64,000 nucleotides of DNA from a virus. Location of the stretch: the IMG/VR virus record IMGVR_UViG_3300032242_002041, positions 124,001 to 188,000 of that record; one strand, written 5' to 3'. The position numbers and the translations under genes are program-made. This document shows, in pieces, positions 14,245-30,637 of this stretch. Each line of letters starts with the position of its first letter. Positions within the stretch are counted from its first letter, which is position 1. The notes under the pieces were generated by a model. It ran no database searches, was not told the DNA's origin, and was given only the letters and a program-made list of their open reading frames with translations.

Positions 14245-14856
14245 ATGTCACAGCCAATTAGAAAAATCAAGCTGCCGCCTCCATCGGCAAAATTAATTGC
14301 TATGTTTAAAGAAGTAGCAGAAAGCAATCTGGTACCACAACCATTGGCAGAACCAAATTTAGCAATAAATTCAACATTTACCTTTGCATCACAGGAAATT
14401 AACCGCCAAGTACAACTTGAATATCTACAGTATATTCCTAATACCAAATTTAGAGCTTTTTTTGGTGTGATGAAAAACACAATGCCTGGTCATCCAAGCT
14501 CTATATCGCCACATACAGACCGTCGTAGGTTGATGTCGTTAAATTACTACATTGACCTGGGCGGCTCTGCTGTTGAAACAGTGTTTTATACTTTTCGTCA
14601 AAATTTTTTTGATGCACGTAAAAGCACACAATTGACGTATTTGAAAGCAGGAAAAAAAACAAAATCTGTAATACTTGATCAAGGATGGTATGCGTTCGAC
14701 GGGGACTTAGCACACAGCGTAGAAAATATTCTTACTACTCGAACTATATTATCATTGAGAATTGTCGAAGGTGACACTGACGAAAACTCAGTTAATAAAT
14801 ATGGCCTGTCAGATTTAATTCGAGATTATCCAGAACTCATTGGCGAGGAAATCTGA
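14245..14856 (+). CDS. Fe(II)/2-oxoglutarate oxygenase-like protein (type A, copy 1)
   Basis: 203 residues. The putative metal triad is SPHTDRRRLMSLNYYID (about residues 91-107, H-x-D) and FDGDLAHSVEN (about 154-164, distal H), followed by RTILSLRI, which supplies the usual 2OG-binding Arg region. Between them is a conserved VETVFYTFR. The protein at 18335 has the same H-x-D-x-R-R ... VET-x-FY ... H layout, so these are paralogues. Likely a small-molecule or sugar hydroxylase; the substrate is unknown. First plus-strand gene of the accessory island. Confidence 0.6.
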   Translation: MSQPIRKIKLPPPSAKLIAMFKEVAESNLVPQPLAEPNLAINSTFTFASQEINRQVQLEYLQYIPNTKFRAFFGVMKNTMPGHPSSISPHTDRRRLMSLNYYIDLGGSAVETVFYTFRQNFFDARKSTQLTYLKAGKKTKSVILDQGWYAFDGDLAHSVENILTTRTILSLRIVEGDTDENSVNKYGLSDLIRDYPELIGEEI

Positions 14857-15557
14857 GCCAATACAAGCTGGGCAAAGTTTTTATTAGTAGCTACACCAGA
14901 ATGGAATAAATCTCTTGCCAAATCGACTCTTGAGGTCATAAAGTATTCGGCATTTATTATTTTAAGTTCAATGCCAGCAGTATTACATAATTGCGTTATT
15001 GCCAGTGCATTTTTTGCCGCATTCATTTCTGAGTTTAAATCGTTGAGTATCCATTTTCTATAAAACGGTCTTAGCTCTGCAGGAATAACATTATTTCTTA
15101 ATGTGTCAACATTACATCGTATTAACATATCTTCGTCGATAACTTCGATTCTTCTAATGTTTGGACGACACAGGATAACAAGTTTTGGTTTTATCTTGTC
15201 TAACCAATAATATGCTAATCTAAAAGCAGTATCATTGGAACACCCAGGCATTCCAAGATTGTAATTTTTTAATTTTATTTCGGTTGACACCAAATGTGTC
15301 CAGGTCTTCTCTAGAGGTAATCCGACTCCAAATGTATGGCTGCATCCTAAAAACATCACCGACGGTTCGGCATTGGTAAACTCAGCACATCGAAAACCAT
15401 AACTATTAAGTTTGTAAGTAAATGCAGCATTGAGCCACCCGTTAGCTTCAAGCTCGTGGTACCTTGATTCTAAATGCTTGTTATAAAATTCAACAGAATC
15501 CATGGCAATCCAGGAAAGCTCTTGTCCAGCAAGATTAGAATAAAGACTACGATGCAT
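14826..15557 (-). CDS. SGNH/GDSL-type hydrolase
   Basis: 243 residues. Block I is MFLGCSHTFGVGLPLE (about residues 68-83; Ser in GCSHTFG), block II NLGMPGCSND (Gly, about 99-108), block III-like CRPNIRR (Asn), and block V DLFHSGVA (Asp and His near residue 224). This gives the full Ser-Gly-Asn-His set of SGNH esterases, which often deacylate surface polysaccharides. Convergent with the 2OG-like gene, with a 31-base overlap. No signal peptide. Confidence 0.65.
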   Translation of the reverse strand: MHRSLYSNLAGQELSWIAMDSVEFYNKHLESRYHELEANGWLNAAFTYKLNSYGFRCAEFTNAEPSVMFLGCSHTFGVGLPLEKTWTHLVSTEIKLKNYNLGMPGCSNDTAFRLAYYWLDKIKPKLVILCRPNIRRIEVIDEDMLIRCNVDTLRNNVIPAELRPFYRKWILNDLNSEMNAAKNALAITQLCNTAGIELKIINAEYFMTSRVDLARDLFHSGVATNKNFAQLVLAQISSPMSSG

Positions 15558-15564
15558 TATGGGT

Positions 15565-16698
15565 TTAAAATGTTAGTGGATAATATTTTGATCGAATCAT
15601 TGGTATAGCAAACAAATTGTCGGTGGTCATTCCAAAGTATTTTCCAGCCGAATCGTGATAGACATTTAACATTGATTTAACATAATCTTTAAACCATTTA
15701 GTATCTCTAGCACTATCAAACACTTCTTTACTTTGGCCTTGAAGCCTAGCTGTAGTGTAGTCGTTAGGATTATCAACTATCAACTTACAACCCCAATTGG
15801 CTATGTGTGGGTTTTTGCTGTTGGCCAAATCGCCATACCTTCCGGAGGCCAGGCTATATTCTAACCAATCAAATTTAATTGGACTGTGTAAATCATTGTA
15901 GTCAGCTAGATCTCTTGCATCTCGAGCATTAGGATGCTTGTTTTTTATATATTTAAACAGCATGTAGGATTGCTTGACATGTAATTCTGGTAAATCTGAA
16001 GTAAGGAAAAAGCATTCCATGCTAGGGCAATTCATTGGCCTAACATAATTGATATCATCTTGAAAACTATATACTCGGCCGTCTTCATCAAACTGTAATC
16101 TAGGCTTTTCGTATCCAATAATGGACATCACATCTCGGCCCATCATTGTGCATATTTTGTCATGCTCTACTTTCATGCCGCCATGCAAGTTAAATGTATA
16201 ACGTTCTGCTGTGTCCCAAATCCAATCTTCAGAGTGATACTTTTTTTCTAAAAATCCTAACTCTTCGTCGTCAACCATGATTTGACAATGGGGATCGTAC
16301 AGTCCTTTGTCAAAAAATTCATATACTTGACGATACTGTGATTGATATCTCTCGCCTTTTCTAACTCTGGTATACAGCATATCAATGTGTATATTATTGC
16401 GTTCAAATACTTTGTAAATGGTGTAGGCATCTGTGCCGCCACTGAAGTGTAGAACAATTGGTTTGTCTTGTGCTCTTGCTTTTTCAGCAACTTGGTGAGC
16501 TCGTATATCTAATAAACTATCCCAGCTGAGACTGGGCTCAACTGCCCAATTGACTGCATCAAACGCTGATTCAAAAAGATTGAATTTTATTTTTTGATTG
16601 GTTTTGTATGCGTAATTGGCAGCTTGAAATTTATTGAGAAAAAATTGATTGCCAACTTGATAGTGCATTTCATTCATAAAAATACTTATGCTGGGCAT
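15565..16698 (-). CDS. PP-loop ATP pyrophosphatase family protein (copy 1)
   Basis: 377 residues from ATG 16698 (other starts at 16677 are possible). The N-terminal cap MHYQVGNQFFLNKFQAA is shared with the copies at 26529 (YYQVGNQFFNHK) and 33710 (YYHVGDKTFYGK). The PP-loop is VLHFSGGTDAYTIYKVF (about residues 88-104), where copy 3 has SGGGDS and copy 2 SGGRDS. PP-loop enzymes (asparagine synthetase, QueC, TilS, PAPS reductase) activate a substrate with ATP as an adenylate. No glutaminase domain and no QueC zinc motif are present, so the substrate is unknown. Confidence 0.65.
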   Translation of the reverse strand: MPSISIFMNEMHYQVGNQFFLNKFQAANYAYKTNQKIKFNLFESAFDAVNWAVEPSLSWDSLLDIRAHQVAEKARAQDKPIVLHFSGGTDAYTIYKVFERNNIHIDMLYTRVRKGERYQSQYRQVYEFFDKGLYDPHCQIMVDDEELGFLEKKYHSEDWIWDTAERYTFNLHGGMKVEHDKICTMMGRDVMSIIGYEKPRLQFDEDGRVYSFQDDINYVRPMNCPSMECFFLTSDLPELHVKQSYMLFKYIKNKHPNARDARDLADYNDLHSPIKFDWLEYSLASGRYGDLANSKNPHIANWGCKLIVDNPNDYTTARLQGQSKEVFDSARDTKWFKDYVKSMLNVYHDSAGKYFGMTTDNLFAIPMIRSKYYPLTF

Positions 16699-16732
16699 AA
16701 TTTTGATAATTAAATATATCCCCGGAGAAAAC

Positions 16733-17683
16733 ATGAAATATTTACTATTACTGTTGGCATTAATGGCGCCAATTATTGCCAATGCATTTGAGCCGCAAAA
16801 AAATCCTATTCAAATTGTTGTTTCGGCAGCACCAGGCGGCCCGGCTGACCAATTTGCCAGACTGTTTTCAGAATTTTTAACAACCCGTGGATATCCTGCT
16901 ACGGTAGTTAACAAACCAGGCGCTAATCGTACCTTGGGTGGTAATTATATCGAGTCCATTCCAGGTAATAATTATACCTTAATAGTTGGCACCAAATCAG
17001 ATTCCTTAATTAACACCATTGTAAAACCAGCTGGAATTCGATATAACGAAACAACATACACCCCGCTGGGAATGATTGGTTATGATTCCAACGTTTTCCT
17101 AATTAATAAATCACAAATACACAGCAGAGATATTACCATGTTCTTAGAAGAATATCGAGTCAACAACAAAAAAATTAATTTTGGTGTTCCTGGAATAGTT
17201 GCCGAGCTTGCTATCAGGGATTTTGTGCGGCCAACAGGCATAGAACCAACTATCTTACAATTTAAATCTTCCTCCGAAGTCACTGCCGCAGTGGCCGCAG
17301 GAACTGTACAAGTAGGAGTAAACGAGCTCACGGCATCGTTGCCTATGATTCGTTCAGGGTATGTTGGTGCGTTGGCAATTACAGCCCCACTAGGATCCAT
17401 TCATAGAAGTCCAAGTTTGCCTAATATTGAAGTAGTTCAAGAAGTTAATAAAAAATTTAATCGACACCACAATCAATGGTTTGGATTTTTTGGTCCTCAT
17501 GACATGAAACCTGAGGCTGTTAAATTTTACTCTGATATGATTGTTGCGTGGCAAACAGATCCTGTTGCTAAGGAAAAAATAGCCTTGCTAATTAATCCTA
17601 AAATAATGAACTCTCAGCAGTTTGAATCGTTCTATAGAGATCAGTTCGTGCAAGCCAAGAAGCTACTGCAAACCAGTGAATGA
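16733..17683 (+). CDS. TctC/Bug-type solute-binding protein (copy 1)
   Basis: 316 residues from ATG 16733 (GGAG ribosome site). Signal peptide MKYLLLLLALMAPIIANA, cleavage likely after ANA. Then IQIVVSAAPGGPADQFARLF, the diagnostic (V)(P)(F/A)xPGGxxDxxAR ligand loop of the tripartite tricarboxylate (TTT) binding-protein family, and later QWFGFFGP. In bacteria these periplasmic proteins capture carboxylates for TctA/TctB; no transporter membrane genes are present here. A phage copy is unusual and could steal or sequester a metabolite in the periplasm, or act as a decoy. Overlaps the next gene by 8 bases. Confidence 0.8.
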   Translation: MKYLLLLLALMAPIIANAFEPQKNPIQIVVSAAPGGPADQFARLFSEFLTTRGYPATVVNKPGANRTLGGNYIESIPGNNYTLIVGTKSDSLINTIVKPAGIRYNETTYTPLGMIGYDSNVFLINKSQIHSRDITMFLEEYRVNNKKINFGVPGIVAELAIRDFVRPTGIEPTILQFKSSSEVTAAVAAGTVQVGVNELTASLPMIRSGYVGALAITAPLGSIHRSPSLPNIEVVQEVNKKFNRHHNQWFGFFGPHDMKPEAVKFYSDMIVAWQTDPVAKEKIALLINPKIMNSQQFESFYRDQFVQAKKLLQTSE

Positions 17684-18341
17684 CATAACTATCTTTTATC
17701 AGGGTGCATCCGGCGGGTTTGCTCTATACTACTATCTACTACTAAGCGGCAAGTATCAGTATGATATCCCCACAGTAAAACAGATGATCGGCCAACAGTT
17801 TCCTGACTCGTTAAACAAAAATCGTTCAAGCTGGAAATCAAATGAGTTTTGGCCCGACAACGCTCAACTTAAAGATACACAGGGTAAAAAAATATTTCTA
17901 ATATGTAATCCATTGTTTGTTGATTCCATGTATGATATGCATAAAACTGTTAGCAATGATACTTACAAAATTTTACTCTACACTGATATACATCTACAGC
18001 TTCGTATGGCCTATGATAAGCAGGCCTACTGGTTTACATCAATAAGTCGACAAATGTTTAACGCACCTCGTAGCACTAAAAAGTATCTAAAGCGAATTAT
18101 TAATTCTAGCCTAGACTACAGGGATATTCAAGTAGATCCAGTATTTTTGGATGTAGTAGAAAAATTTTCACCAGATCAATTAATTAGACTGGAAGATTTT
18201 GTTAATTCTGCAACGATAAATAATTTTGCACCACCAAATCAGGATCAACGTGATTTTTTGAAATATTGGTTATCGTTGCAATCTCCTAAGGCAATACAGT
18301 TGATTGAAAAATACTATCGCACTCCTTTTACATTATGTTAA
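17676..18341 (+). CDS. Nucleotide-loop protein, possibly sulfotransferase-like
   Basis: 221 residues, started at GTG 17676 (VNDITIFYQGASGGFALYYYL), which overlaps the previous stop by 8 bases; a longer frame runs into the TctC gene. The loop YQGASGGF in a strand-loop-helix setting recalls the loop at the start of 13569-14198. The rest has charged helices and a KYLKRIINSSLDYRD stretch. I cannot name a family with confidence. Confidence 0.4.
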   Translation: MNDITIFYQGASGGFALYYYLLLSGKYQYDIPTVKQMIGQQFPDSLNKNRSSWKSNEFWPDNAQLKDTQGKKIFLICNPLFVDSMYDMHKTVSNDTYKILLYTDIHLQLRMAYDKQAYWFTSISRQMFNAPRSTKKYLKRIINSSLDYRDIQVDPVFLDVVEKFSPDQLIRLEDFVNSATINNFAPPNQDQRDFLKYWLSLQSPKAIQLIEKYYRTPFTLC

Positions 18342-18796
18342 ATTTTGAATACATTGATTTACCACCTATCCCAGAGATCTTATATCCGGACATTTATGCA
18401 TCGTTTAGCACTCCGCAGTATAATATTCATAGCTCAGGATACAAGATATGCAACTGCCCAGAATCTGTATACAAGTGGGTAGCTACGGTGTTTGATCCAA
18501 ACATATACAAATATGATTGTGTAAATGCACAGGAAATAACTGCGGACATGATTATACACAAGGACTGGCGAAGAAAGCTAGTATATAATTTTATTCTTGA
18601 ATCAGGAAACGACAGCGTTGAAACTTGCTTTTATCGAGAAAAAAATCCTGCTACCCTAATAGAACGCCATATAATTGAACCGGGTCGCTGGCATAGACTT
18701 AATGTTGATGCATGGCACAATGCTCAAGGATTAACTCCTGGCGATCGTAGAGTAGCCCTGTGCGTATTCAAACAAGCTAACCGCGACAGTTCATAA
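18335..18796 (+). CDS. Fe(II)/2-oxoglutarate oxygenase-like protein (type A, copy 2)
   Basis: 153 residues. IIHKDWRRKLVYNFILE (H-x-D, about residues 71-87), DSVETCFYREK and WHRLNVDAWHNAQG (distal His, about residues 124-137) match the pattern of the protein at 14245. R-V-A-L-C-V-F follows as the 2OG-side strand. Shorter than copy 1 but with all putative metal ligands. Overlaps the previous gene by 7 bases. Confidence 0.55.
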   Translation: MLNFEYIDLPPIPEILYPDIYASFSTPQYNIHSSGYKICNCPESVYKWVATVFDPNIYKYDCVNAQEITADMIIHKDWRRKLVYNFILESGNDSVETCFYREKNPATLIERHIIEPGRWHRLNVDAWHNAQGLTPGDRRVALCVFKQANRDSS

Positions 18797-18801
18797 TTAA
18801 T

Positions 18802-19365
18802 ATGACTCAACTTGATCAAACAATTGTTAATAATTTTTATCGGAACAGAATTGAACCTGTTGCTGACGCACTACAGCGATTAAAAAGTCTAAAGTATTCT
18901 GGGCTCGCCCTGGTTAATAAAATTAACGCAACAGAATCAGTTGTGGATATAGGTTGCGGTAATAATATCTTCAAACAATTTATACCCAACTTAACGGGCG
19001 TTGACCCAATGTATGAGTCAGCTGACTATCAAACAGATCTTCAAAGTTTTGTAACAGATAAAAAATTTGATGTGGCATTTTGTTTGGGTAGTATTAACTA
19101 TGGCACAGTAGACAACATCACACAACAAATACAAAAAGTTATTGACTTGCTAACACCCGGTGGAAGAATTTATTGGCGCATTAAGTTAGGTCCGCATGCG
19201 CCAGGGGATATCAATAGTGCCGCTAACAAGTATCCGTGGACTCTAGCAGATATCTACCGGTTTGCTGAGCAGTTTGGATTCCGTGTGGCAGAACTTCAAG
19301 AGGAAGTGATAACCACTGGCGAACCAAACCCAGAACGCATATATGCGGAATGGACTAGACTATGA
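18802..19365 (+). CDS. Class I SAM-dependent methyltransferase
   Basis: 187 residues. Motif I is SVVDIGCGNNIFKQF (about residues 45-59), followed by LTGVDPMYE (motif II acidic residue replaced by the D of GVDP), then FDVAFCLGSINYGTVD (motif IV) and LLTPGGRIYWRIKLG (motif V). This is the standard order for small-molecule methyltransferases. ATGA overlap with the radical SAM gene suggests joint action. The substrate is unknown. Confidence 0.75.
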   Translation: MTQLDQTIVNNFYRNRIEPVADALQRLKSLKYSGLALVNKINATESVVDIGCGNNIFKQFIPNLTGVDPMYESADYQTDLQSFVTDKKFDVAFCLGSINYGTVDNITQQIQKVIDLLTPGGRIYWRIKLGPHAPGDINSAANKYPWTLADIYRFAEQFGFRVAELQEEVITTGEPNPERIYAEWTRL

Positions 19366-20930
19366 AACAGTACGAAGTTGTCTTAATGACAGATACGTTC
19401 AAATACCACTGGCCTGCTTCGCGTCCATTGGCTATCTATCGCTTGGCCAGCCATTTGCGGGACAATGATATCACTGTAAAAACTGCAAATAAATTTTTGC
19501 ATATGACCATGGATCAATTCAAACGATGTATTGATCTTTATGTCTCTGACGCTACCGTACTTGTAGGCATCAGTGCCACAGTAATGTTTGATTACCCAAA
19601 GGGATGGTTTTTTGGCATTTCAGACGAGGAAATGTTAGAACGAATTGCTTATATTAAAAGTCGCAATCCTGCCGTAAAAGTAGTGGTAGGCGGAGCACAA
19701 GCCGATATTATGGACAACGAATTTTTACAAACCTTTAAGACCATTGACTATGTTTGCCAAGGTCAAGGCGAAAACATTCTACTGGCCATTTATCGACATC
19801 TTAAGTGGGGAGAAAAGCTACGATCCAGCGGACTTGAGTCGCCAAAAATTATAACAGAAAATTTTTACAAATACGAGGATTTTTGTTCAAGTAAGAACAC
19901 TTTTACCGAAGACGATGACATTGTGCCCAGAGAAGCACTACCGTTAGAAATTGCCCGCGGCTGTATTTTTAAATGTAAATTTTGTGCCTACGATTTAACA
20001 CAGAAAAAGTTTATGGACTACACAAAGACTTTTGATAACCTACGAGCTGAATTTATTAATAATTACGAAAATTTTCAAACCCAGCACTACTATACTTCGG
20101 ATGATTTGATCAACGACAGCGTGGAAAAGGTCGATATGTTGTTGGCTGTTACTGAATCTTTGCCTTTTAAAATTTATCTTGGCGGCTACATTCGTTTAGA
20201 TTTGGTGCGCAGATATCCAGACATGATTGAAAAATTAAAACGCATTGGGCTAGTAGGAGGGTTTGTTGGCATTGAAACCATCAATGATAAGAGCGGCCGC
20301 GCTGTAGGCAAAGGGCTAGGACGTCAACGTATCGAAGAAGCACTACAACAATGCAAGGATGTCTGGCAAGGGGAAGTTTATATACAAGCCGGGTTTATAC
20401 TTGGGTTGCCACACGACACAGTCGAAACAGGACCCGAGCTATACGAGTGGGGCAAGGCGGCAATTGATAATAGCCTAATTCATAAATTAAATATACAGCC
20501 GTTAAAAATTAACCCCAACCTAGGAAAATCTGACATAAACGAACATCCTGAAACTTATGGCTATCAAATTGAGTTAGAAGGTGCAAAGACAATATTTGCT
20601 CATCAAGCCCTGGTCAAAAAACCCAAAGGCATACACGACACAGCTGAGTGGAAAACAGAAACATATAATTCTAAACAAGCTGTAACAGACGCCGCACGAT
20701 ATAATACAGAATTAACACAGAGACAAGTAATACCTGAGTATGCCATAAGTCCGTTTGGATTGCCTATGATTTTGGCACTGCTACCCAAGGATCTTGCCGA
20801 ACAGTTTGTACGATATAATACCAGATTCATACCAGCCACAGACGAAATGACCAATAGATTTAAATCTGCATTGACAAGAAACTATAATAATTACGAACAA
20901 GCGTATTTTAAAAAGTTGTTACAACTTTAA
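19362..20930 (+). CDS. B12-binding-type radical SAM enzyme (copy 1)
   Basis: 522 residues. The N-terminal part (about 1-150) has a Rossmann-like layout (TVLVGISATVMF ... VKVVVGGAQADIMD ... DYVCQGQGENILLAIY) like the cobalamin-binding domains of class B enzymes. The radical SAM cluster motif is LEIARGCIFKCKFCAY (CxxxCxxC, about residues 196-211). GGYIRLD and GGFVGIET follow in the TIM barrel. Such enzymes methylate or rearrange unactivated carbons or phosphinates. Its twin lies tail-to-tail at 20927-22387. The cluster with a methyltransferase suggests tailoring of one product. Confidence 0.8.
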   Translation: MKQYEVVLMTDTFKYHWPASRPLAIYRLASHLRDNDITVKTANKFLHMTMDQFKRCIDLYVSDATVLVGISATVMFDYPKGWFFGISDEEMLERIAYIKSRNPAVKVVVGGAQADIMDNEFLQTFKTIDYVCQGQGENILLAIYRHLKWGEKLRSSGLESPKIITENFYKYEDFCSSKNTFTEDDDIVPREALPLEIARGCIFKCKFCAYDLTQKKFMDYTKTFDNLRAEFINNYENFQTQHYYTSDDLINDSVEKVDMLLAVTESLPFKIYLGGYIRLDLVRRYPDMIEKLKRIGLVGGFVGIETINDKSGRAVGKGLGRQRIEEALQQCKDVWQGEVYIQAGFILGLPHDTVETGPELYEWGKAAIDNSLIHKLNIQPLKINPNLGKSDINEHPETYGYQIELEGAKTIFAHQALVKKPKGIHDTAEWKTETYNSKQAVTDAARYNTELTQRQVIPEYAISPFGLPMILALLPKDLAEQFVRYNTRFIPATDEMTNRFKSALTRNYNNYEQAYFKKLLQL

Positions 20931-22404: not shown

Positions 22405-22434
22405 AAAAAACCCTGCGATTTTTACATCGCAGGG
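22405..22434 (-). terminator. Rho-independent terminator
   Basis: CCCTGCGA / TCGCAGGG stem with an 8-base loop and TTTTTT on the minus strand. The 5' arm of the stem covers the last codons of the phosphoesterase gene, which ends at 22422. Confidence 0.85.
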
Positions 22435-23027
22435 CCGTTGCCGTTCTTGAAACCTACTTCACCACCTTCTGCCTCGATACGTTTGATAACGTCTTCAAAC
22501 AAGATAGGTGCAAAGTCCGGGGTTTGTTCTACGCATACGCAATGGTAGCGTGGATCAATCTCATCATTGTAAAGAAGTTCACCTGTTTTAACATTAACAC
22601 CACGAATTTTCTTTACGCGATTAGCGTGAAGGTGTCCGTGAATATTAACACCAAAGCGACCAAGACTTTCTGGGTGAACCGGAATATGACTAAGAATCAT
22701 CCCATTCATCACATGGTATCCACGTAGACTTCTAAAGTAAGGAGTATAGTCCTCATCCTTAAAGATGTCGTGATTGCCACGTATGAGAACTTTGTCACCG
22801 TTTAGCCTATCCAGAATAGGCAAGGCTTTGCGGTTAATAACCACATCACCCAAATGGTAAACCTTGTCATTTGGACGGACACGTTCGTTCCATGCGGCAA
22901 CCATGGCTTCGTCCATTTCCTTGGGATCAGTCCATGGGCGAAGTTTTGTAACACCATCCGTGCGGGTGAAGCGACACACACCAGCATGACCAAAGTGTGT
23001 ATCGCTTGTTAAAAATACTGCTGGCAT
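22422..23027 (-). CDS. Calcineurin-like metallophosphoesterase
   Basis: 201 residues with all family motifs in order: TSDTHFGHAG (D-x-H), HLGDVVIN (GD), VLIRGNHDIF (GNHD), LSHIPVHPE (H) and NIHGHLHAN (GHxH). A dimetal phosphoesterase; phage members are thought to act on cyclic nucleotides or nucleic-acid ends, but the substrate is unknown. Promoter at 23060-23088, AAAGGAGCC ribosome site, and its own terminator, so a single-gene unit. Confidence 0.85.
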   Translation of the reverse strand: MPAVFLTSDTHFGHAGVCRFTRTDGVTKLRPWTDPKEMDEAMVAAWNERVRPNDKVYHLGDVVINRKALPILDRLNGDKVLIRGNHDIFKDEDYTPYFRSLRGYHVMNGMILSHIPVHPESLGRFGVNIHGHLHANRVKKIRGVNVKTGELLYNDEIDPRYHCVCVEQTPDFAPILFEDVIKRIEAEGGEVGFKNGNGPAM

Positions 23028-23203: not shown

Positions 23204-24298
23204 TTACAAATTATGTATGCGGTGGTGTAACCAATTTCGCAGAGGGCCAATAAAGTGCTCACGATTTTGAATCCACCAATGATTGTGATCTAACACATTT
23301 TTTAATTTTCTGTAAACAATAAAAGAATCTTTTCTGGCCAGATCAAGCATGGATTGCCAGGCCGCTTGCCATCGTTCACCATCATCGGTTATTTGATCAT
23401 ACGATTCATCTATTATAGAATCAAATGTTTGAAACCCTAGTTGATTTAGGTTGTAAAGGAAATTAGCTGAGCCGAATACTATAAATGGTCTTTTGGCAAA
23501 TAACGGCTTGGCTGTTTTTTCTGTAGGAAAAAAATGATCGTTATTAAAATATGGGGTTCTTGCGGTAGTTTCGGCTACAACACTATAATTCGAGTCGGCA
23601 TAAATTTTCCATGGCACACGGTTTGATTCTCTTTGTTGAAAGGGTACTCCATGACTTCCAGTTATATAACTATGAAAAGAAAGTCCACCGTTGAGTTTTT
23701 CACATACTTGATCTGTTTCGTATTTTTCAAGTCCAGGAGTACGATAAATTGTTTTGCAATTAATATCAGCATTGTTGGAGGTGTAGTTTACAAAACTTTT
23801 TGTTAACAAAGAAGATTGTTTTAGTTGATTAAACAAATAATCTCTATGAGGTTTTTTCAAGCCCAGCAATATATCAAATATATTTTCTTTTGATGTAGAG
23901 TAATTTTGATCTTCAAATTTGTTAAAAGGTGTGCCTACTTCTAACAACATCCAGGGAACCATGAAATAATTTTGATTGTTTATTTTGTCTCCGGTTACTA
24001 AAAGTATATTAGAATTAATATAATATTTTGCAAGTCTATCTTCATAATCGGGCCAAGGAATCCATTCTTTACTAAACACAATAACTAAATCAAACAAAGA
24101 CAAATCAAGTGCTAGTTGTGTAAAAGACTGGCATTGAACTACTGCTATTTTTTTACCGCAATTAAATCGAAATCGAGTATAATTACTGTAGTAATACTTG
24201 CTGTCGATTGGCAGGATATCGTAATGAGGAAATAATTCTCCTGGGCGAATTTCAAACGATTCTAAACAGTGGTCAATATTATATATTTGATTAAACAT
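23204..24298 (-). CDS. TEK-motif glycosyltransferase-like protein (copy 3)
   Basis: 364 residues from ATG 24298; the upstream ATG at 24331 would lie inside tRNA-Cys. Near residues 245-310: FFPTEKTAKPLFAKRPFIVF, NLNQLGFQTFDSIIDESYD. The signature is the same as at 9896 and 12442. The N-terminal half has VVQCQSFTQLALDLSLFDLVIVFSKEW. As in its relatives, only the putative donor-binding region is conserved. It sits within the tRNA region without its own visible promoter. Confidence 0.6.
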   Translation of the reverse strand: MFNQIYNIDHCLESFEIRPGELFPHYDILPIDSKYYYSNYTRFRFNCGKKIAVVQCQSFTQLALDLSLFDLVIVFSKEWIPWPDYEDRLAKYYINSNILLVTGDKINNQNYFMVPWMLLEVGTPFNKFEDQNYSTSKENIFDILLGLKKPHRDYLFNQLKQSSLLTKSFVNYTSNNADINCKTIYRTPGLEKYETDQVCEKLNGGLSFHSYITGSHGVPFQQRESNRVPWKIYADSNYSVVAETTARTPYFNNDHFFPTEKTAKPLFAKRPFIVFGSANFLYNLNQLGFQTFDSIIDESYDQITDDGERWQAAWQSMLDLARKDSFIVYRKLKNVLDHNHWWIQNREHFIGPLRNWLHHRIHNL

Positions 24299-24323
24299 AG
24301 CAGAAACATATTTAATATAGAGT

Positions 24324-24401
24324 TGGAGCAACGGGTAGGATTTGAACCTACGGTGTTAGGGATTTGCAGTCTCTCGCATTGGGCCACTCTGCCACCGTTG
24401 C
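24324..24401 (-). tRNA. tRNA-Cys (anticodon GCA)
   Basis: Acceptor GCAACGG/CCGTTGC, D-arm, anticodon loop CTGCAAA giving GCA, T-arm GTAGG-TTCAAAT-CCTAC, discriminator T, CCA encoded. One mismatch in the anticodon stem. Confidence 0.9.
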
Positions 24402-25031: not shown

Positions 25032-25036
25032 AATTT

Positions 25037-25807
25037 ATGTCCACATATAACATAGAAGTACATGATAATTTAATAGCTCCAGATTTGCATGAAAAAATTT
25101 ATCAATATATAAAAACACTTACCTTTACAGGAGTTTGGTTGGAAGCCAAACGAGTTGAATTTGATTATAGTCTCAACAGTCCCAAAAATCCAGCCGACTG
25201 GATGTTGTATCAAAGTATGGGCAGAGAACTACAATTACATCGGTGCCCGTTAGCCAGCGACGAGCACAGTTTAAAGGCCTTTCCGCCAATTTATTTGTTA
25301 TGGAAAGAGATAAATCGTCGACTAGACAATCAATTTGAGTTAGCTGGGAATCCAGAAGGCATGGCTACTCCGTTAAAAATTCCAACTCCGCAAGATTCTA
25401 ATTTAAAAACAGGATGGCGTGCCTATATAAATGCCCACTATAATACACACGCAGGACACGGCGGCGACGGTTATGCACATCGAGATACACCGTTAGAATA
25501 TAATGATGAAAACACTGTTACTATGCTGTATATTGCTAATCCAGATTGGTATCCATCATGGTCGGGCGATTTAAAATTCTACGGCGAAGATCCCGAAGGA
25601 CTATCCAAAGATCATCAACAGTTTAATCGTGGTATACAGCAACGACGAAATTACAATGTTGGGTGGTTAGATCAAGGACGTGTAGTAAGTCCAGTTCCCG
25701 GACGTTTGATTGTATATGATGGACGTTGTCTACACGGAACTACTTTACCAAGTTCTCCTCTTGAAACACCAATTATTAAAATAGCATTTCGTGCTAGACG
25801 AAAATAA
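25037..25807 (+). CDS. Fe(II)/2-oxoglutarate oxygenase (prolyl-hydroxylase type)
   Basis: 256 residues. HAGHGGDGYAHRDTPLEY (about residues 137-154, H-x-D), TVTMLYIANPDWYPSWSGDL as core strands, then GRLIVYDGRCLHGTTLPSS (distal His near residue 236) and IIKIAFRARRK with the 2OG Arg. This is the double-stranded beta-helix of P4H/2OG-Fe(II) phage oxygenases, which hydroxylate sugars, peptides or nucleobases. It is a different subtype from the two proteins at 14245 and 18335. It lies directly before tRNA-Tyr on the other strand. Confidence 0.75.
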   Translation: MSTYNIEVHDNLIAPDLHEKIYQYIKTLTFTGVWLEAKRVEFDYSLNSPKNPADWMLYQSMGRELQLHRCPLASDEHSLKAFPPIYLLWKEINRRLDNQFELAGNPEGMATPLKIPTPQDSNLKTGWRAYINAHYNTHAGHGGDGYAHRDTPLEYNDENTVTMLYIANPDWYPSWSGDLKFYGEDPEGLSKDHQQFNRGIQQRRNYNVGWLDQGRVVSPVPGRLIVYDGRCLHGTTLPSSPLETPIIKIAFRARRK

Positions 25808-25809
25808 TT

Positions 25810-25894
25810 TGGTGGGCCAGGAAAGATTCGAACTTTCGTACTCAGAGAGGGGAGATTTACAGTCTCCTGGTTTTAGCCACTCACCCACCGACCC
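25810..25894 (-). tRNA. tRNA-Tyr (anticodon GTA)
   Basis: Class II, 85 bases: acceptor GGGTCGG/CTGGCCC, anticodon loop CTGTAAA giving GTA, long variable arm, T-arm GAAAG-TTCGAAT-CTTTC, CCA encoded. In many phages Tyr and Gln tRNAs are queuosine targets; this GTA (G34) is a Q-type anticodon. Confidence 0.93.
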
Positions 25895-25896
25895 AT

Positions 25897-26034
25897 ATAG
25901 TAAAACGCACTGGCCACTTTTGTGTTTGCTTCCAGAATAATCGGACCGTCCAATGCGCTTTACTATACTATCATCTATACTAGGTTGTTGCCGCCAACTG
26001 TTCATCCGATAGCCCGCCCGTTTGTGTTGTTTAT
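25897..26034 (-). ncRNA. Structured leader upstream of tRNA-Tyr
   Basis: Between the promoter at 26035-26063 and tRNA-Tyr is about 138 bases of RNA. Its 3' part forms a 17-bp helix (25897-25913 with 25950-25966; ATAGTAAA at one end, two G-U pairs). No coding frame or second tRNA is visible. It may be a processing leader or a separate RNA cut from the same transcript. Confidence 0.5.
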
Positions 26035-26063
26035 AGTATAACACAGGTCCTCGTTACCTGCAA
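26035..26063 (-). promoter_or_regulatory. Sigma70-like promoter
   Basis: TTGCAG (26058-26063), 17-bp spacer, TATACT (26035-26040). Weaker hexamers than most here but the same spacing; precedes the structured leader and tRNA-Tyr. Confidence 0.65.
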
Positions 26064-26078
26064 CCACTTTGAACCATT

Positions 26079-26247
26079 AATCTTCTATTTGATGATAAAC
26101 TGTATCACGTGCCTGAAGCATTTCTGTTGCACGACGAATCTTATTCTGAAACAGTCTTGTTTTCATTTCTTCGGTTAGTGTTAAATTACTAACTTCCCAA
26201 GCCTGTTTGACAATACGATCATTTAGTTTACTATAATCTGTGTCCAT
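26079..26247 (-). CDS. Small helical protein (56 aa)
   Basis: Starts MDTDYSKLNDRIVKQAWEVSN, fully helix-prone and charged, ends TVYHQIED. AAAGGAAAG precedes the ATG at the right distance. The coding frame has no rival. A terminator is placed just upstream of it (26265-26301), so it needs read-through or its own promoter. Function unknown. Confidence 0.7.
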
Positions 26248-26264
26248 GTTCTTTCCTTTAAAAT

Positions 26265-26301
26265 AAAAAACCCCGGAGTGTTTAAAGTTCCGGGGTTTTT
26301 T
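26265..26301. terminator. Bidirectional Rho-independent terminator
   Basis: CCCCGGA / TCCGGGG stem flanked by AAAAAA and TTTTTT, usable on either strand. On the minus strand it ends the short transcript from the promoter at 26435-26463. Confidence 0.9.
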
Positions 26302-26325
26302 GAATAAAAATTAAAAACTTACTAT

Positions 26326-26424
26326 TCAATCGTCCCATCCCTCTGTTTCTAGTCCACAGCCATTGACCCACGCCCAAATCATATTTGGTAGTGTGGCTAA
26401 GAGTAGATAGTTCGAATGTTTCAT
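26326..26424 (-). CDS. Tiny peptide from a consensus promoter (32 aa)
   Basis: Starts MKHSNYLLLATLPNMIWAW, hydrophobic N-terminal half with Trp-rich end (GCGLETEGWDD). It lies between a perfect sigma70 promoter and a terminator, with no Shine-Dalgarno. Either a short membrane peptide or the transcript is a small RNA and the frame is accidental. Confidence 0.4.
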   Translation of the reverse strand: MKHSNYLLLATLPNMIWAWVNGCGLETEGWDD

Positions 26425-26434
26425 GTTAGTAAGT

Positions 26435-26463
26435 ATTATACACGGTTATTTATCTCTTGTCAA
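26435..26463 (-). promoter_or_regulatory. Consensus sigma70 promoter of a short transcript
   Basis: TTGACA (26458-26463), 17-bp spacer, TATAAT (26435-26440), perfect hexamers. Start of transcription would fall about 3 bases before the ATG at 26424. The terminator at 26265-26301 would give an RNA of about 155 bases. Confidence 0.9.
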
Positions 26464-26528
26464 CCCCTGTCAGACAACAAATTTGTTTTAATTGTCAGCC
26501 AAGTTACCTGCTACTAAATATTGGCTCA

Positions 26529-27737
26529 ATGCAAGCAACTCACCCTGTTCTTTTTGCAGACTCTAAAGCGCCATTTGATACTGTTGCTAAAAATGGCTAT
26601 TATCAAGTTGGCAATCAATTTTTTAATCATAAGATATCAGCTTTGATAGAAGCTACAAAAACCAATCAATCCGTACAATGGCATTTCAATGATCCGGTAT
26701 GGAATAAAATAAACTGGCGCAGCAATGATTCAATACCGGTTACATATTGGTATCAAGAACGAGCAAAACAATTAAGAGACAAATATGATTATCTGATCTT
26801 GGCATTCAGCGGAGGCAGAGACAGTCATAATGTATTACATAGTTTTATTGATAATGATATTCATTTAGATGAAGTCTGGTGCGATTGGCCGCTTCAACAT
26901 ACTGAAGGAAAGTTTGATTTAAATCCACATGATTGTTCTCCAGAGAACATGCCAAGCGAGTGGACCTATAGTATTAAACCAGAACTAGATCGACTGGCTC
27001 AATCGCATTCTCTTACAAAAATTACCATAACTGATTCTACTTCTACATTGGCTGACGAAAATGCCGAAGATACTTTGATGATATCTCAATACGCATTTTA
27101 TGCCACTGTCAAACGTTTTAGAGAATTAGATACTATTGTTCGACAGCGCAGTAAAAAATACGCTCGGGTAGGAGTCATTGTAGGCATTGAAAAACCACAA
27201 TATCTAATAATCAACGGCTTTATGTCATTGTTTTTTAGCGACAGCACCATGCAGATAAAATCTGACAGCATTGGAGACTGTACTAGAGAAGTTGAATATT
27301 TCTATTGGTCAGCTGATCTGCCCGAGTTGGTTAGATCGCAAGGACATGCAATCCTTGATTACCTAAGAGCCAATCCATGGGCACAGCAATTGCAATCTTT
27401 TGCATCAATTAAAAATAATCTTACAGTTACCATTGATACTCCAGAACAAAGCCAGGCCTGGAGAAATTTAATAAACTACGCAATTTATCCACAATGGGAC
27501 AATAAATTTCAAGTAGCTAAACCTATTGATTTTTTATACAATAATGAATATTATTCTTGGCTGACCAGTCATCAAGATCTCAGGGCATTACAAAGTCATC
27601 GTAATGCCTTGGATAACTCACTAAAATTGGTAGATCACAGATTTTTTAAAAAAGCACACAATAATGCAATTTTAAATTATAAACCTTTTACTACAAAATT
27701 TTTACCAGTTGGAAAACTAGAAAATTTACTAGATTAG
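26529..27737 (+). CDS. PP-loop ATP pyrophosphatase family protein (copy 2)
   Basis: 402 residues from ATG 26529; a TTG at 26457 is in frame but falls in the minus-strand promoter. Family cap GYYQVGNQFFNHKISALIEA (about residues 24-43), then LRDKYDYLILAFSGGRDSHN (PP-loop SGGRDS, about 95-100), and HLDEVWCDWPLQ. VGIEKPQYLIING matches YGIDKPKMCIRDG in copy 3. A late conserved region reads YNNEYYSWLTSHQ. Probably adenylates a substrate; partner unknown. Next to the TctC and radical SAM genes. Confidence 0.65.
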   Translation: MQATHPVLFADSKAPFDTVAKNGYYQVGNQFFNHKISALIEATKTNQSVQWHFNDPVWNKINWRSNDSIPVTYWYQERAKQLRDKYDYLILAFSGGRDSHNVLHSFIDNDIHLDEVWCDWPLQHTEGKFDLNPHDCSPENMPSEWTYSIKPELDRLAQSHSLTKITITDSTSTLADENAEDTLMISQYAFYATVKRFRELDTIVRQRSKKYARVGVIVGIEKPQYLIINGFMSLFFSDSTMQIKSDSIGDCTREVEYFYWSADLPELVRSQGHAILDYLRANPWAQQLQSFASIKNNLTVTIDTPEQSQAWRNLINYAIYPQWDNKFQVAKPIDFLYNNEYYSWLTSHQDLRALQSHRNALDNSLKLVDHRFFKKAHNNAILNYKPFTTKFLPVGKLENLLD

Positions 27738-27738
27738 T

Positions 27739-28671
27739 TTACCGAGTTTCTGATATTTGTTTTTCGTAACGATGTACCAAGGCTTTTATTTGCAGTACAC
27801 GCAAATTAAAAAATTCTTCGGTTGACATTTTTGGTTTCCTAAACATAGGAGGACTCATATCCGATGAACTGCTTATGTAATCTGCTCCAAGTTTTTCTTG
27901 TGCTTGATCTAAGATGCGGGCAATTTCCTGTCGCTTGGCCACAGGCATTTTAACATTTGCTACAGTGCTCATAAAAATTGTTGGAGTATTAAATCCTTGC
28001 TCGGATAACGTTTTAATTTCGGGAACTAACGGATTTCTAGTAGGGCAACTGATTCCTAATATTTTTAAGTTGGGATTTTTTGATTTGAAGATTTGATAAT
28101 TTGATACTCGCTCAATTACAAAGTTAATAGGCTCTCCAGCAGCCATTTGAGTCAACGCATCATAGTTGGCTTTATAAACAATATACCTAACTTTAAATCC
28201 TAACTTTTCGCCAATAATAAGTGCAGTTAAATGTGTGGCATTTCCGTAGCCGGTTCCGCCAACAGTAATTTCTTTTTGACCTTTTAGGCTAGCGATTCCT
28301 TGTTGAGTATTACCGATGTTAGTGATTACCGCCCAACAAGCATCACCTTGGGTAGCAACAGGAACATAATCGGATTCATTAATTAACCCCTGTCTTGCAT
28401 TTTCAACAAACGACGGCGCTACTGTGGCCAACCGTGTTTGTGGATTTTGATCCATGGTTTTCAATGCAATGACACCTTGTGCCCCTGGTTTAAATTCTAA
28501 TATAAATTCATATTTATTTTGGCTTCGATTGGCTATGTCCAGCATTTTAATATATGGTGTTGCATTTGGTTGATTGGCGGCAGCTCCAAATTCAATAACA
28601 ATTGTTTCTTGCGCCAACACAGATTGAAATGCTGTTATACAAGCTAATAGACTCAATATTTTTTTAATCAT
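27739..28671 (-). CDS. TctC/Bug-type solute-binding protein (copy 2)
   Basis: 310 residues from ATG 28671. Signal peptide MIKKILSLLACITAFQSVLAQ, cleavage likely after VLA. The ligand loop FGAAANQPNATPYIKML is a diverged form of the PGGxxD loop. Conserved Bug elements follow: KPGAQGVIAL, GGTGYGNATHL, NLKILGISC. The two copies differ, so they were acquired or duplicated long ago and may bind different ligands. No TctA or TctB gene in the window. Confidence 0.65.
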   Translation of the reverse strand: MIKKILSLLACITAFQSVLAQETIVIEFGAAANQPNATPYIKMLDIANRSQNKYEFILEFKPGAQGVIALKTMDQNPQTRLATVAPSFVENARQGLINESDYVPVATQGDACWAVITNIGNTQQGIASLKGQKEITVGGTGYGNATHLTALIIGEKLGFKVRYIVYKANYDALTQMAAGEPINFVIERVSNYQIFKSKNPNLKILGISCPTRNPLVPEIKTLSEQGFNTPTIFMSTVANVKMPVAKRQEIARILDQAQEKLGADYISSSSDMSPPMFRKPKMSTEEFFNLRVLQIKALVHRYEKQISETR

Positions 28672-28703
28672 AACATTAATAGTTAGTCGACCTTTGCACA
28701 AGC

Positions 28704-28711: not shown

Positions 28712-28715
28712 TTCC

Positions 28716-29762
28716 ATGCTTAATATACAAGACATTCGTCAAGTACAGATAGAACTCACCACTCGGTGCAATGCTCGTTGCCCGATGTGCATGAGAAATT
28801 ATCGCGGCCTGGATTTCAATTCTGGATATCCTGAAACAGAACTTACTTTAGATAACATAAAACAAATTTTGCAACCAGAATTTTTAAAGCAATTAACTAA
28901 AGGAATAAGCTTCAACGGCAATTTAGGCGATTTTGGGCTAGCCCGAGATGCACAAGAAATAGTACAATGGTTAACAGATCAAGGTGTTCCAGTATACATC
29001 AATTCTAACGCTAGTATGCGTACACCAGACTGGTGGGCCCGACTGGCCCGTCCTGGAGTCAGAATTGGATTTGCCATTGATGGATTAGCGGATACGCACA
29101 GTTTGTACAGACAAGATACCGATTGGCACCGAGTAATAGCCAATGCAACTGCATTTATTCAAGCAGGCGGGCATGCTATTTGGCGCTTTATTCCTTTTGA
29201 TCATAACCAACATCAAGAACAAGCCTGTAAAGATTTAGCTAAAGAACTAGGTTTTTTTCAATTTGAAAATATTAACGAAGGCCGCAACCGCGGGCCTGTA
29301 TATTCTAGACTAGGAGAGTTCAGTCATTGGCTTGGCGAACCTTTTACCGATCAAGAAAAACTAAACCCACCTGATATAAAATCAATGTTAGAAAGTCATG
29401 TTACTTGGTTTGACTATCGTACGGTTAAATCTAACAAAGACACCCAGCCATTAAATTTAATCTGTAATCATAAGCGTATTAAAGAAATTTATATTGCAGC
29501 AGACGGAACTGTTTACCCATGTTGCTTTTTGGGCTTTTATCCCACAACAATGAATCATCCTGGTAATAAAGAATTAAAACCAATGATTAAAAATAACAAC
29601 GCCCTAGAATATCCATTGGAAGAATGCATTAATTGGTTTAACGAAGTTGAAAAATCTTGGGATCGTTCCAGTATTGCCGACGGTAGATTATACACTTGTG
29701 TTAATACTTGTGGGCAACATGACACTCCTATTTTTGCAAAACACAAACAAGAGATAATATGA
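28716..29762 (+). CDS. Radical SAM enzyme (SPASM-like C-terminus)
   Basis: 348 residues. The Fe-S motif is ELTTRCNARCPMCMRNY (CxxxCxxC, about residues 11-27), then ISFNGNLGDFGLARDAQEIV (GGE-type SAM region), VRIGFAIDGLADTHSLY and IYIAADGTVYPCCFLGFYP with a C-terminal cysteine cluster (C-x(n)-CC, later C-V-N-T-C) typical of SPASM or twitch auxiliary clusters. Such enzymes modify peptides, sugars or alcohols. ATGA overlap with a second radical SAM gene, so the two probably work in sequence. Confidence 0.8.
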   Translation: MLNIQDIRQVQIELTTRCNARCPMCMRNYRGLDFNSGYPETELTLDNIKQILQPEFLKQLTKGISFNGNLGDFGLARDAQEIVQWLTDQGVPVYINSNASMRTPDWWARLARPGVRIGFAIDGLADTHSLYRQDTDWHRVIANATAFIQAGGHAIWRFIPFDHNQHQEQACKDLAKELGFFQFENINEGRNRGPVYSRLGEFSHWLGEPFTDQEKLNPPDIKSMLESHVTWFDYRTVKSNKDTQPLNLICNHKRIKEIYIAADGTVYPCCFLGFYPTTMNHPGNKELKPMIKNNNALEYPLEECINWFNEVEKSWDRSSIADGRLYTCVNTCGQHDTPIFAKHKQEII

Positions 29763-30637
29763 CCAATAGAATAGTAATAGATAAATTAGAATTTTACATC
29801 ACTAACGTATGTAATCTGACTTGTAGTGGATGTAATAGATATAATAATTATAAGTTTGCTGGCTGGGAAAATTGGAATGATTATGAAAAGATTTTTGAAC
29901 AATGGGCAGAAAAAATTGACATTATTAAACCGGTAATATTAGGTGGAGAACCTTTGCTTAATCCCACTATCAACGAGTGGATCAACGGAATTCAGCGAAT
30001 ATGGCCCGCCCACTACTCGCCACAAATTCAAAGCAATGGAACACGTATAGATTTGGTTGACGGGTTATACAACGCATGTCGTAAATCGGGTACATGGATT
30101 GGCATTAGCCTTCATGTGCAAGACGATAGAGATGCTATTTTTAATCGTATTAGAAATTTTTTAGTGCATCCAATTAACGAAACAACTGACAGTAGCTCAC
30201 AACACGGATCAAATTGTCAATTTGTTGATGCAAATAACGTACAAGTGCATGTATGGTTATCTGATCATTTTACACAAAACAATATTATAGAAGGCCCTAT
30301 GGGAGAATTTAAACTATACAATAGTGATCCTATTCTGGCACACAATAACTGTGCATTTGTTAAATTTAAAAATTATCATTTTATCAATGGAAAAATTCAC
30401 AAGTGTGGACCAGCTCCCCTAATGCAACAATTTGATCAGCAGTATCCTTTTAGTATATCAGATGAGGATCGTGCGCTTATACACAGTTATCGAGGGTTAT
30501 CGGTAGATGAATTTGACGAGCGTGGTGAAGAATTTTTCCGTACCATAGATGATCCTATACCACAGTGTAAATTTTGTCCTGAATCATATGAGTATAAAAA
30601 AATACAATTTTCAAATCTAAAGCCTAACAAAATTTAA
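29759..30637 (+). CDS. Radical SAM enzyme
   Basis: 292 residues. Fe-S motif FYITNVCNLTCSGCNRYNNY (CxxxCxxC, about residues 16-22), PVILGGEPLLNPTINEWI (GGE SAM-binding motif) and GTWIGISLHVQDDR. The C-terminus has CKFCPESYEYKK, a further two-cysteine site, and KCGPAP. Shorter than its neighbour at 28716. Followed by a terminator, so the two form one operon. Confidence 0.8.
   Translation: MTNRIVIDKLEFYITNVCNLTCSGCNRYNNYKFAGWENWNDYEKIFEQWAEKIDIIKPVILGGEPLLNPTINEWINGIQRIWPAHYSPQIQSNGTRIDLVDGLYNACRKSGTWIGISLHVQDDRDAIFNRIRNFLVHPINETTDSSSQHGSNCQFVDANNVQVHVWLSDHFTQNNIIEGPMGEFKLYNSDPILAHNNCAFVKFKNYHFINGKIHKCGPAPLMQQFDQQYPFSISDEDRALIHSYRGLSVDEFDERGEEFFRTIDDPIPQCKFCPESYEYKKIQFSNLKPNKI

Follow-up and report, generated by a model that had tools for sequence, protein, structure and literature searches.

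The Campylobacter phages CP220 and CPt10 encode 11 and 12 radical SAM genes, respectively, and carry near their baseplate genes an exchangeable cluster of ~10 kb that holds five radical SAM genes and an amidinotransferase (Timms 2010, PMC2853527). Pelagimyophages possess a host recognition cluster, a large variable island beside the tail-fiber genes with glycosyltransferases and radical SAM cassettes (PMC7029224), and a T4-like TARA genome combines 12 radical SAM genes with an A-type Fe-S carrier (Nishimura 2017, PMC5332604). A review lists tctA among phage auxiliary genes (PMC6359870). Here we analyze a window, the whole 64,000-nucleotide stretch of DNA given above, from the 228-kb record of a T4-like phage. 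Positions 14245 to 30637 form an island that a sequence-only reading took for a small-molecule or glycan biosynthetic cluster. With confidence that is about evenly balanced, we view it instead as a hypervariable, tRNA-interrupted cargo locus of separately exchanged cassettes, whose recurring unit would pair a PP-loop protein with a carboxylate/amino-acid solute-binding protein for capture and ATP activation.

Make-up and turnover of the island

The island contains four radical SAM, three oxygenase-like, two PP-loop and one methyltransferase genes. The sequence-only reading had passed over further genes of the island, namely those for two solute-binding proteins of the TctC type, one GT10-like glycosyltransferase and a calcineurin-like phosphoesterase, as well as seven tRNA genes (ARAGORN). 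A GT10-like paralogue ahead of the island (12442) and a DctP gene just beyond it had likewise escaped notice.

12442-13572, minus: GT-B/GT10-like glycosyltransferase paralogue, family F2 (self-blast family; model of paralogue 23204)
14245-14856, plus: small 2OG-like protein with HxD...H motif, function putative (homologous to 18335 by iterative HMM)
14826-15557, minus: SGNH/GDSL-like protein, named tentatively by eye (weak DUF6473 match)
15565-16710, minus: PP-loop protein, cassette copy 1 (alignments A1/A3/A8, SGGxD motif; family fold match)
16733-17683, plus: TctC (Bug-type) solute-binding protein with hydrophobic N-terminal signal (PF03401, 70.6 bits; hydropathy)
17676-18341, plus: protein with glycine-rich loop (FYQGASGGFALYYYL), start placed by the L184 homologue
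18335-18796, plus: small 2OG-like protein with HxD...H motif (homologous to 14245)
18802-19365, plus: SAM methyltransferase (PF13489, 28.2 bits, cut-off 27)
19362-20930, plus: B12-binding-domain radical SAM protein, twin 1 (PF04055, 42.7 bits; PF02310, B12-binding, 32.4 bits; both over cut-off)
20927-22387, minus: B12-type radical SAM protein, twin 2, convergent with twin 1 (PF04055, 51.9; B12-binding weak, 15.4 bits)
22422-23027, minus: calcineurin-like phosphoesterase, a conserved landmark of the locus (phrog_547, 3.5e-48)
23204-24331, minus: GT-B/GT10-like glycosyltransferase (Foldseek, best matches GT10 fucosyltransferases)
25037-25807, plus: 2OG-Fe(II) oxygenase-like protein (PF13640, 21.3 bits; FlmC, 2e-9; both below cut-off)
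26457-27737, plus: PP-loop protein, copy 2 (A1/A3/A8; AlphaFold core matches LarE, GMP synthetase)
27739-28701, minus: TctC solute-binding protein, signal-bearing (PF03401, 36.8 bits; hydropathy)
28716-29762, plus: radical SAM protein with C-terminal SPASM-like Cys cluster, family F24 (PF04055, 38.2 bits; alignment A5)
29759-30637, plus: short radical SAM protein, second gene of the 28716 operon (PF04055, 41.0 bits)
32626-33564, minus: DctP-type solute-binding protein without signal peptide (PF03480, 184.5 bits)
33710-34894, minus: PP-loop protein, copy 3, outside the island (A1/A3/A8)
34930-35004, minus: tRNA(CAU), nearest tRNA-Ile2, 36 bp upstream of PP-loop copy 3 (ARAGORN)

The island differs from its surroundings in composition, with lower GC (0.379 vs 0.407 in the flanks; Mann-Whitney P = 0.002) and GC3 (0.31 vs 0.35; P = 0.006), and its strands alternate as first described (10 plus and 6 minus genes vs 0 and 36 in the flanks). 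The original observation is confirmed, with ORFs present at the positions it gave. All four radical SAM proteins exceed the PF04055 cut-off and carry the CxxxCxxC motif, which is invariant in the family of twin 2; the B12 twins, 25% identical to each other, are indeed convergent, overlapping tail-to-tail by 4 bp, and 28716 and 29759 form the proposed two-gene operon. The methyltransferase barely clears its threshold. The PP-loop assignment of 15565 and 26457 stands on the SGGxD motif and fold matches to a low-confidence model, neither protein having a significant Pfam match. The three 2OG-like proteins fared unevenly: 25037 is weakly supported, whereas 14245 and 18335 have no Pfam match and are tied together by mutual homology and HxD...H, so both are putative oxygenases. 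The SGNH/GDSL-like family numbers about 117 members in related phages, and family F2 has six copies in the record by self-blast.

The family profile of twin 1 matches TsrM, TokK, OxsB and AprD4-type structures. Neither twin reached the cut-off of any NCBIfam model, and a single-sequence search with a B12 twin and a profile search with A5 returned no usable matches; among relatives of the twins in bacterial genomes are B12-type radical SAM genes arranged in tandem on a gammaproteobacterial MAG contig. The profile of 28716 matches BlsE and SkfB. By the NF033640 model (N_Twi_rSAM, cut-off 170 bits), g104409, in the array elsewhere in the record, is a member at 328.9 bits, and 28716 (30 bits) and 29759 (21 bits) are not.

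The locus turns over between close relatives. A sister phage (L340), whose core proteins reach 92% identity, retains the radical SAM operon (28716 at 66%, 29759 at 81%) and the phosphoesterase (88%), but its PP-loop and TctC genes are non-orthologous to those of the island, and its matching stretch has no B12 twins, methyltransferase, 2OG-like genes or second PP-loop/TctC pair. Anchoring on the B12-type radical SAM genes or on 29759 recovers few other island families in related loci. Because of this gene content and low co-occurrence, the island is not a single conserved cluster, and one conserved 16-kb pathway is ruled out; the idea of a biosynthetic cluster is thus not supported for the island as a unit, although a glycan role for part of it is still plausible. 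Co-occurrence, which the sequence-only reading proposed to check, is nevertheless pronounced for the PP-loop genes and TctC/DctP.

Linkage of PP-loop and solute-binding-protein genes

The window holds three PP-loop paralogues (15565, 26457 and 33710), each of which adjoins a TctC or DctP gene (3/3), giving cassette copies at 15565/16733 with 17676-20930, at 25037-28701 and at 32626-34894. The SGGxD[SA] loop occurs in 111/115 family members, and Foldseek matches the AlphaFold model, which is of low confidence (mean pLDDT 46), to the PP-loop folds of LarE, GMP synthetase and NadE (probability up to 1.00, E about 4e-3); loop and HUP-type fold match place the family among PP-loop ATP pyrophosphatases without a sequence-family match. 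Searches of INPHARED and of 84,980 prokaryote species did not find the family, and PDB sequence searches with it and with the GT-like family gave no credible match.

TctC/DctP homologues are present in 64 of 80 PP-loop loci, both tRNA-bearing (52/61) and tRNA-free (12/19), and in none of 17 tRNA-bearing accessory loci that lack a PP-loop gene, which rules out the tRNA neighborhood as the whole cause of the link. Among 160 accessory controls, only three loci have TctC/DctP, and all three contain a PP-loop gene; the capsid-gene control loci have none (0/80; Fisher P = 1e-24 for TctC). TctC is the immediate neighbor of 56/115 PP-loop genes and lies on the same strand in 59/60 pairings, and after clustering at 70% identity a solute-binding protein is found within four genes in 34/45 PP-loop clusters. 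The evidence supports a repeated linkage in which genomic position does not explain the pairing. The suggestion of an undescribed system therefore applies to this pair, not to the whole island: PP-loop plus TctC/DctP is apparently a recurring phage cassette, of which we found no published description.

Other genes join the pair in various combinations. Related loci contain the runs B12-rSAM-TctA-TctB-2OG-like-PP-loop-TctC (L459), TctA-TctC-PP-loop-2OG-like (L462) and PP-loop-TctA-TctC-DctP-MFS permease (L457). A homologue of 17676, which has no Pfam or PHROG match, directly adjoins TctC and PP-loop genes in L184; a homologue of 25037 lies immediately downstream of the PP-loop gene in L234; relatives of 14245 occur in PP-loop and B12-type radical SAM loci; and methyltransferase homologues adjoin TctC in G002 and lie near TctC at 218.6 kb of the record analyzed here. 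A B12-type radical SAM gene is near the PP-loop gene in only 6/80 loci, so its functional tie to the cassette is weak.

The binding proteins differ at their N-termini, which are hydrophobic in the cassette TctC proteins and in 0/38 members of the DctP family; the longest ORF of 32626 begins at the mature domain, and DctP, without a signal, is therefore unlikely to be a periplasmic receptor. DctP matches in INPHARED came from records of E. coli, Salmonella, Listeria, Enterococcus and faecal viromes, two carrying the annotation of a bacterial TRAP receptor; they were read as likely host DNA and left out. TctA, TctB and TctC occur together in a related record (G044), where TctA and TctB exceed their Pfam cut-offs. 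A betaproteobacterium is a candidate host, as hinted at by the permuted tmRNA and by TctC.

We posit that TctC, predicted to be exported, would act in the periplasm, where it would capture a small carboxylate or amino acid for handover to a TctAB-type permease, supplied by the host here and phage-encoded in some relatives. Inside the cell, the PP-loop protein could use ATP to activate either the substrate or its acceptor and then join or amidate it, and oxygenase, methyl and radical SAM enzymes could tailor the resulting product, which they would share; the 2OG-like, methyltransferase and B12-type radical SAM genes would be optional. A more specific proposal, which we advance tentatively and would not yet rely on, is that a phage-specific ligase family works on the carboxylates or amino acids so captured and yields a modified product that infection requires, with the DctP-type protein, predicted to be cytosolic, as substrate carrier. 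Several observations count against our preferred explanation of the locus: the record encodes no TctA, and hence no complete TctA/TctB/TctC transporter, and DctM was not found in 18 related records; DctP has no signal, B12-type radical SAM genes seldom accompany the PP-loop gene, and the PP-loop model is of low confidence; and PP-loop loci are rich in tRNA genes, which fits a role in tRNA modification. Taken by themselves, solute-binding proteins that a phage encodes with no transporter are difficult to account for, and their tight link to one PP-loop family points to a partner to test. A vague "island of tailoring enzymes" is now resolved into testable units.

Glycans, tRNAs and other explanations

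The radical SAM operon and the GT10-like genes probably represent a second theme, glycan modification, since tail-adjacent arrays repeatedly combine the same radical SAM families with genes for GT10-like proteins, carbamoyltransferase, DegT and SDR. A wider claim is that radical SAM, oxygenase, methyltransferase and GT10-like enzymes all modify sugars of virion or host-surface glycans, the island being a satellite of the tail-adjacent radical SAM/glycosyltransferase array that the record carries at 90-123 kb. In related records these radical SAM and GT10-like families lie between tail genes and a carbamoyltransferase; a relative of 29759 sits inside one array (G008) and relatives of 28716 in another (G006); CP220 has the same radical SAM families beside amidinotransferase and nucleotide-diphospho-sugar transferase genes; and the model of 23204 suggests a GT10-like fold (Foldseek probability 0.95, E 5e-3, with no PDB sequence match). 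Yet a large share of the locus, the PP-loop, TctC and DctP genes, has no evident connection with glycans and is absent from the arrays, and the island contains no NDP-sugar enzyme, making this account rather improbable for the island as a whole.

The PP-loop proteins could instead act with radical SAM and methyltransferase enzymes on phage tRNAs, as PP-loop enzymes do in TilS, TtcA and ThiI, possibly to sustain decoding or resist anticodon nucleases. tRNA genes accompany 61/80 PP-loop loci, as compared to 13/80, 8/80 and 0/80 in control sets, with totals of 503 vs 125, 29 and 0, and a tRNA ends within 300 bp upstream of 18/118 PP-loop genes. Ten of those tRNAs are CAU, and most typed CAU tRNAs near PP-loop genes are tRNA-Ile2-like, including that of the window (79% identical to E. 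coli ileX vs 69% to metT and 53% to metZ); tRNA-Ile2 is the tRNA modified by bacterial TilS. However, TilS is absent among the 50 Foldseek matches listed, the Pfam tRNA-lysidine family matches none of 55 PP-loop members, and QueC matches only 8/55, weakly. A tRNA role would also leave unexplained the linkage to TctC, DctP and TctAB, which holds in PP-loop loci free of tRNA genes and is missing from tRNA-bearing loci that lack the PP-loop gene, and we regard such a role as unlikely.

Equally unlikely, in our estimate, is a recombination hot spot between tRNA genes that collects unconnected cargo with no joint function: differing gene content in sister phages and the poor yield of the B12-type and 29759 anchors fit it, but PP-loop and solute-binding-protein genes are linked repeatedly, on the same strand and whatever the tRNA context. 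Least likely of all is that TctC, with TctAB in relatives, simply boosts host import of an energy-rich acid, as the co-occurrence of TctA/TctB with TctC and the listing of tctA as an auxiliary gene might suggest, because the supposed passenger, the PP-loop gene, is the most constant member and TctC and DctP are scarcely found without it.

Comparison with described systems

The cassette resembles the TctABC tripartite tricarboxylate transporter in having TctC in the window and TctA and TctB in relatives, but the window phage has binding proteins only, tied to a PP-loop protein without a relative found in prokaryote genomes. CP220 and CPt10 share with the phages analyzed here an abundance of radical SAM genes and the families F24, to which 28716 belongs, and F28, at only about 20-30% identity; the part of CP220 that was inspected has neither a PP-loop/TctC/DctP cassette nor B12-type twins among its annotations, and the amidinotransferase relative in our record lies outside the island, at 114.6 kb. 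The pelagimyophage cluster, also from T4-like aquatic phages, resembles the 90-123 kb locus of the record, whereas the island is a second locus among tRNA genes, away from tail fibers and dominated by PP-loop/solute-binding-protein cassettes. The TARA genome is likewise a radical SAM-rich T4-like aquatic phage, and its Fe-S carrier recalls the IscU- and ErpA-like genes often found near relatives of 29759, although our record has no IscU/NifU_N gene. "Moraphages" were rejected as the same lineage, radical SAM being nowhere mentioned and the hosts predicted to be Bacteroidota (PMC12619734). The claim that phages rarely carry so many such enzymes holds for most phages but not for Campylobacter phages or for this group, which has 16 radical SAM genes in the record and 1-19 in most relatives. 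Radical SAM richness thus characterizes these phages and has precedents among Campylobacter, pelagic and TARA phages, and the finding that T4-like phages can bear up to 19 radical SAM enzymes turns the old puzzle of the radical SAM-rich Campylobacter phages into a general question.

Content and composition of the island

The gene classes that a sequence-only reading had assigned to the island (window positions 14245-30637) are all present there by open reading frames and Pfam, some with qualifications. The "2OG-like" proteins at 14245 and 18335 are mutual homologs sharing an HxD...H motif but match no Pfam family. The PP-loop proteins likewise match no sequence family, and their identity is suggested by fold: the best structural matches of a predicted model built from four sequences (pLDDT 46, low confidence overall) are the PP-loop folds of LarE, GMP synthetase, and NadE; a second structure model was also of modest confidence (pLDDT 62). 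The island is mixed in strand, and its flanks, which that reading had called mostly minus, are uniformly so; the composition check that it proposed places island GC and GC3 below those of the flanks. The sequence-only reading had passed over two TctC solute-binding proteins (at 16733 and 27739), a phosphoesterase, a GT10-like protein, and seven tRNAs, together with a DctP gene just beyond the island edge; there is also a third PP-loop paralog. The genes most relevant here are as follows.

15565-16710, minus strand, PP-loop protein, copy 1
19362-20930, plus strand, B12-type radical SAM twin
20927-22387, minus strand, B12-type radical SAM twin
26457-27737, plus strand, PP-loop protein, copy 2
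32626-33564, minus strand, DctP-type solute-binding protein without signal peptide
33710-34894, minus strand, PP-loop protein, copy 3

A permuted tmRNA lies at 31386-31646 on the minus strand (RF04321, 70.5 bits); its ARAGORN tag is unusually long, ending in ...ARTAQRQSLAV, and nearly identical to that of one related locus (L209), while the tags of other related loci are of the ANDEQFALAA type. Positions 39430-47535 carry a UDP-glucose dehydrogenase (phrog_9148) and SDR-type paralogs, to which inspection by eye adds genes resembling NAD synthase, QueE, and QueD; the themes here, assigned in part by eye, are sugar nucleotides and 7-deazaguanine.

Gene turnover and a shared chemical theme

The island had been read as a single biosynthetic cluster, but gene turnover in a sister phage and rare co-occurrence elsewhere show that it is not one unit. 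The matching stretch of the sister record (L340) keeps the radical SAM operon, with 28716 at 66% and 29759 at 81% identity, as well as the phosphoesterase at 88% and an outer-membrane protein at 85%; its PP-loop and TctC genes are just 26-29% identical to their best window matches, and it has no B12 twins, methyltransferase, 2OG-like genes, or second PP-loop/TctC pair. Other island families rarely occur near relatives of the B12 twins or of radical SAM 29759 (80 loci for each, the best 80 being kept per collection scan query). A locus of the same type (L184) is refilled with PP-loop, TctC, 17676-type, and GT10-like genes and, by eye, three twitch-type radical SAM-like genes, though PF04055 finds just one radical SAM in that record. 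A chemical theme common to the island families is real, even if the unit is not fixed, because in a related record (G006) the nearest counterparts of 28716 and the B12 twins share one array, which further holds more radical SAM, oxygenase-like, methyltransferase, and PP-loop-type genes.

A recurring PP-loop and solute-binding-protein cassette

A PP-loop family profile search of IMG/VR matched at least 119 stretches; among the best 80, TctC family genes occur in 57 (median distance 1.1 kb) and DctP in 41, and 56 of 115 PP-loop genes directly adjoin TctC, nearly always on the same strand. These loci are partly non-independent, and counts are therefore also given for proteins clustered at 70% identity: TctC or DctP lies at most four genes away in 34 of 45 clusters. 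Neither is found in 80 capsid-gene loci; since these come from the structural region, the accessory controls weigh more, and there (160 loci, B12 and 29759 anchors) TctC/DctP appears in only three, all with a PP-loop gene. At the level of records, which were partly picked by PP-loop, TctC is present in 17/19 with PP-loop vs 2/19 others. Permease components are also encoded by some relatives, whose loci run TctA-TctC-PP-loop-2OG-like (L462), PP-loop-TctA-TctC-DctP-MFS (L457), and B12-rSAM-TctA-TctB-2OG-like-PP-loop-TctC (L459; record G044, 5406-11681), the last a single run with phage-encoded TctA/TctB together with TctC; a B12 radical SAM is present in 6/80 PP-loop loci. A pattern-limited scan of 84,980 prokaryote species, one genome each, confirmed no relative of the PP-loop family, INPHARED yielded none for copies 2 and 3, and full-text literature searches turned up no paper on the PP-loop and TctC/DctP combination.

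PP-loop enzymes use ATP and release pyrophosphate, activating a carboxyl or carbonyl group, and TctC-/DctP-type proteins have carboxylates and some amino acids as ligands. Most economically, the cassette would capture a small acid and then activate it in a putative ATP-dependent step, with oxidation or methylation as a possible, optional later step. The N-terminus is hydrophobic in 78/78 phage TctC proteins at a looser cut (72 at a stricter one) and in 0/38 phage DctP family members, so DctP is predicted to be cytosolic. For the radical SAM operon and the GT10-like genes, a putative glycan role is more likely, because these are associated with tail-adjacent arrays. For the PP-loop proteins themselves, the leading alternative is a role in modifying tRNA: tRNA genes abound in their loci, and a tRNA-Ile2-like gene lies 36 bp from copy 3, but this would leave the binding proteins and permeases without explanation. 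Nor is the link to solute-binding proteins merely positional, as it is kept in 12/19 PP-loop loci without tRNA and absent (0/17) from tRNA-bearing loci without PP-loop.

Radical SAM richness of the phage lineage

The full virus record (228,286 bases, with the window at 124001-188000) encodes 16 radical SAM genes, including the four island enzymes. Twelve belong to one paralogous family, a tested member of which lies far over the cut-off of the twitch-domain radical SAM model NF033640; the bulk of the family is found at 99-116 kb, in the interval from the tail genes to a carbamoyltransferase or shortly after it, with GT10-like proteins interleaved. The order of tail genes, small genes (families F10/F3/F9/F5), radical SAM array, and carbamoyltransferase is also seen in related records, and the layout of the whole tail-adjacent region, which spans 90-123 kb of the record (loci L013-L015) and lies outside the window, is similar in relatives. 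In one related record (G001, 2751-5200, locus L137), two adjoining genes that by eye resemble flavin-dependent halogenases lie near a GT10-like gene and a carbamoyltransferase. Relatives of radical SAM 29759 (L339-L418) are close to IscU-like genes in 46/80 loci and to A-type carrier genes in 41/80, both named by eye from sequence, and a gammaproteobacterial MAG contig (L420) has five B12-type radical SAM paralogs in tandem, partly alternating with a protein of ~200 aa.

Records found via the major capsid protein have up to 19 radical SAM matches each, with zero in three short fragments, and the 25 found via island genes have 1 to 19; IMG/VR records are possibly fragments. Most of the lineage's tested genes have no match, or a distant one only, in INPHARED. 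Campylobacter phages CP220 and CPt10 carry 11 and 12 radical SAM genes (PMC2853527), pelagimyophage host-recognition clusters hold radical SAM cassettes (PMC7029224), and a T4-like TARA genome has 12 such genes (PMC5332604). Because of these precedents, and because the CP220 radical SAM and amidinotransferase families are homologous to families in the phages studied here, radical SAM richness is a phage trait of a known kind.
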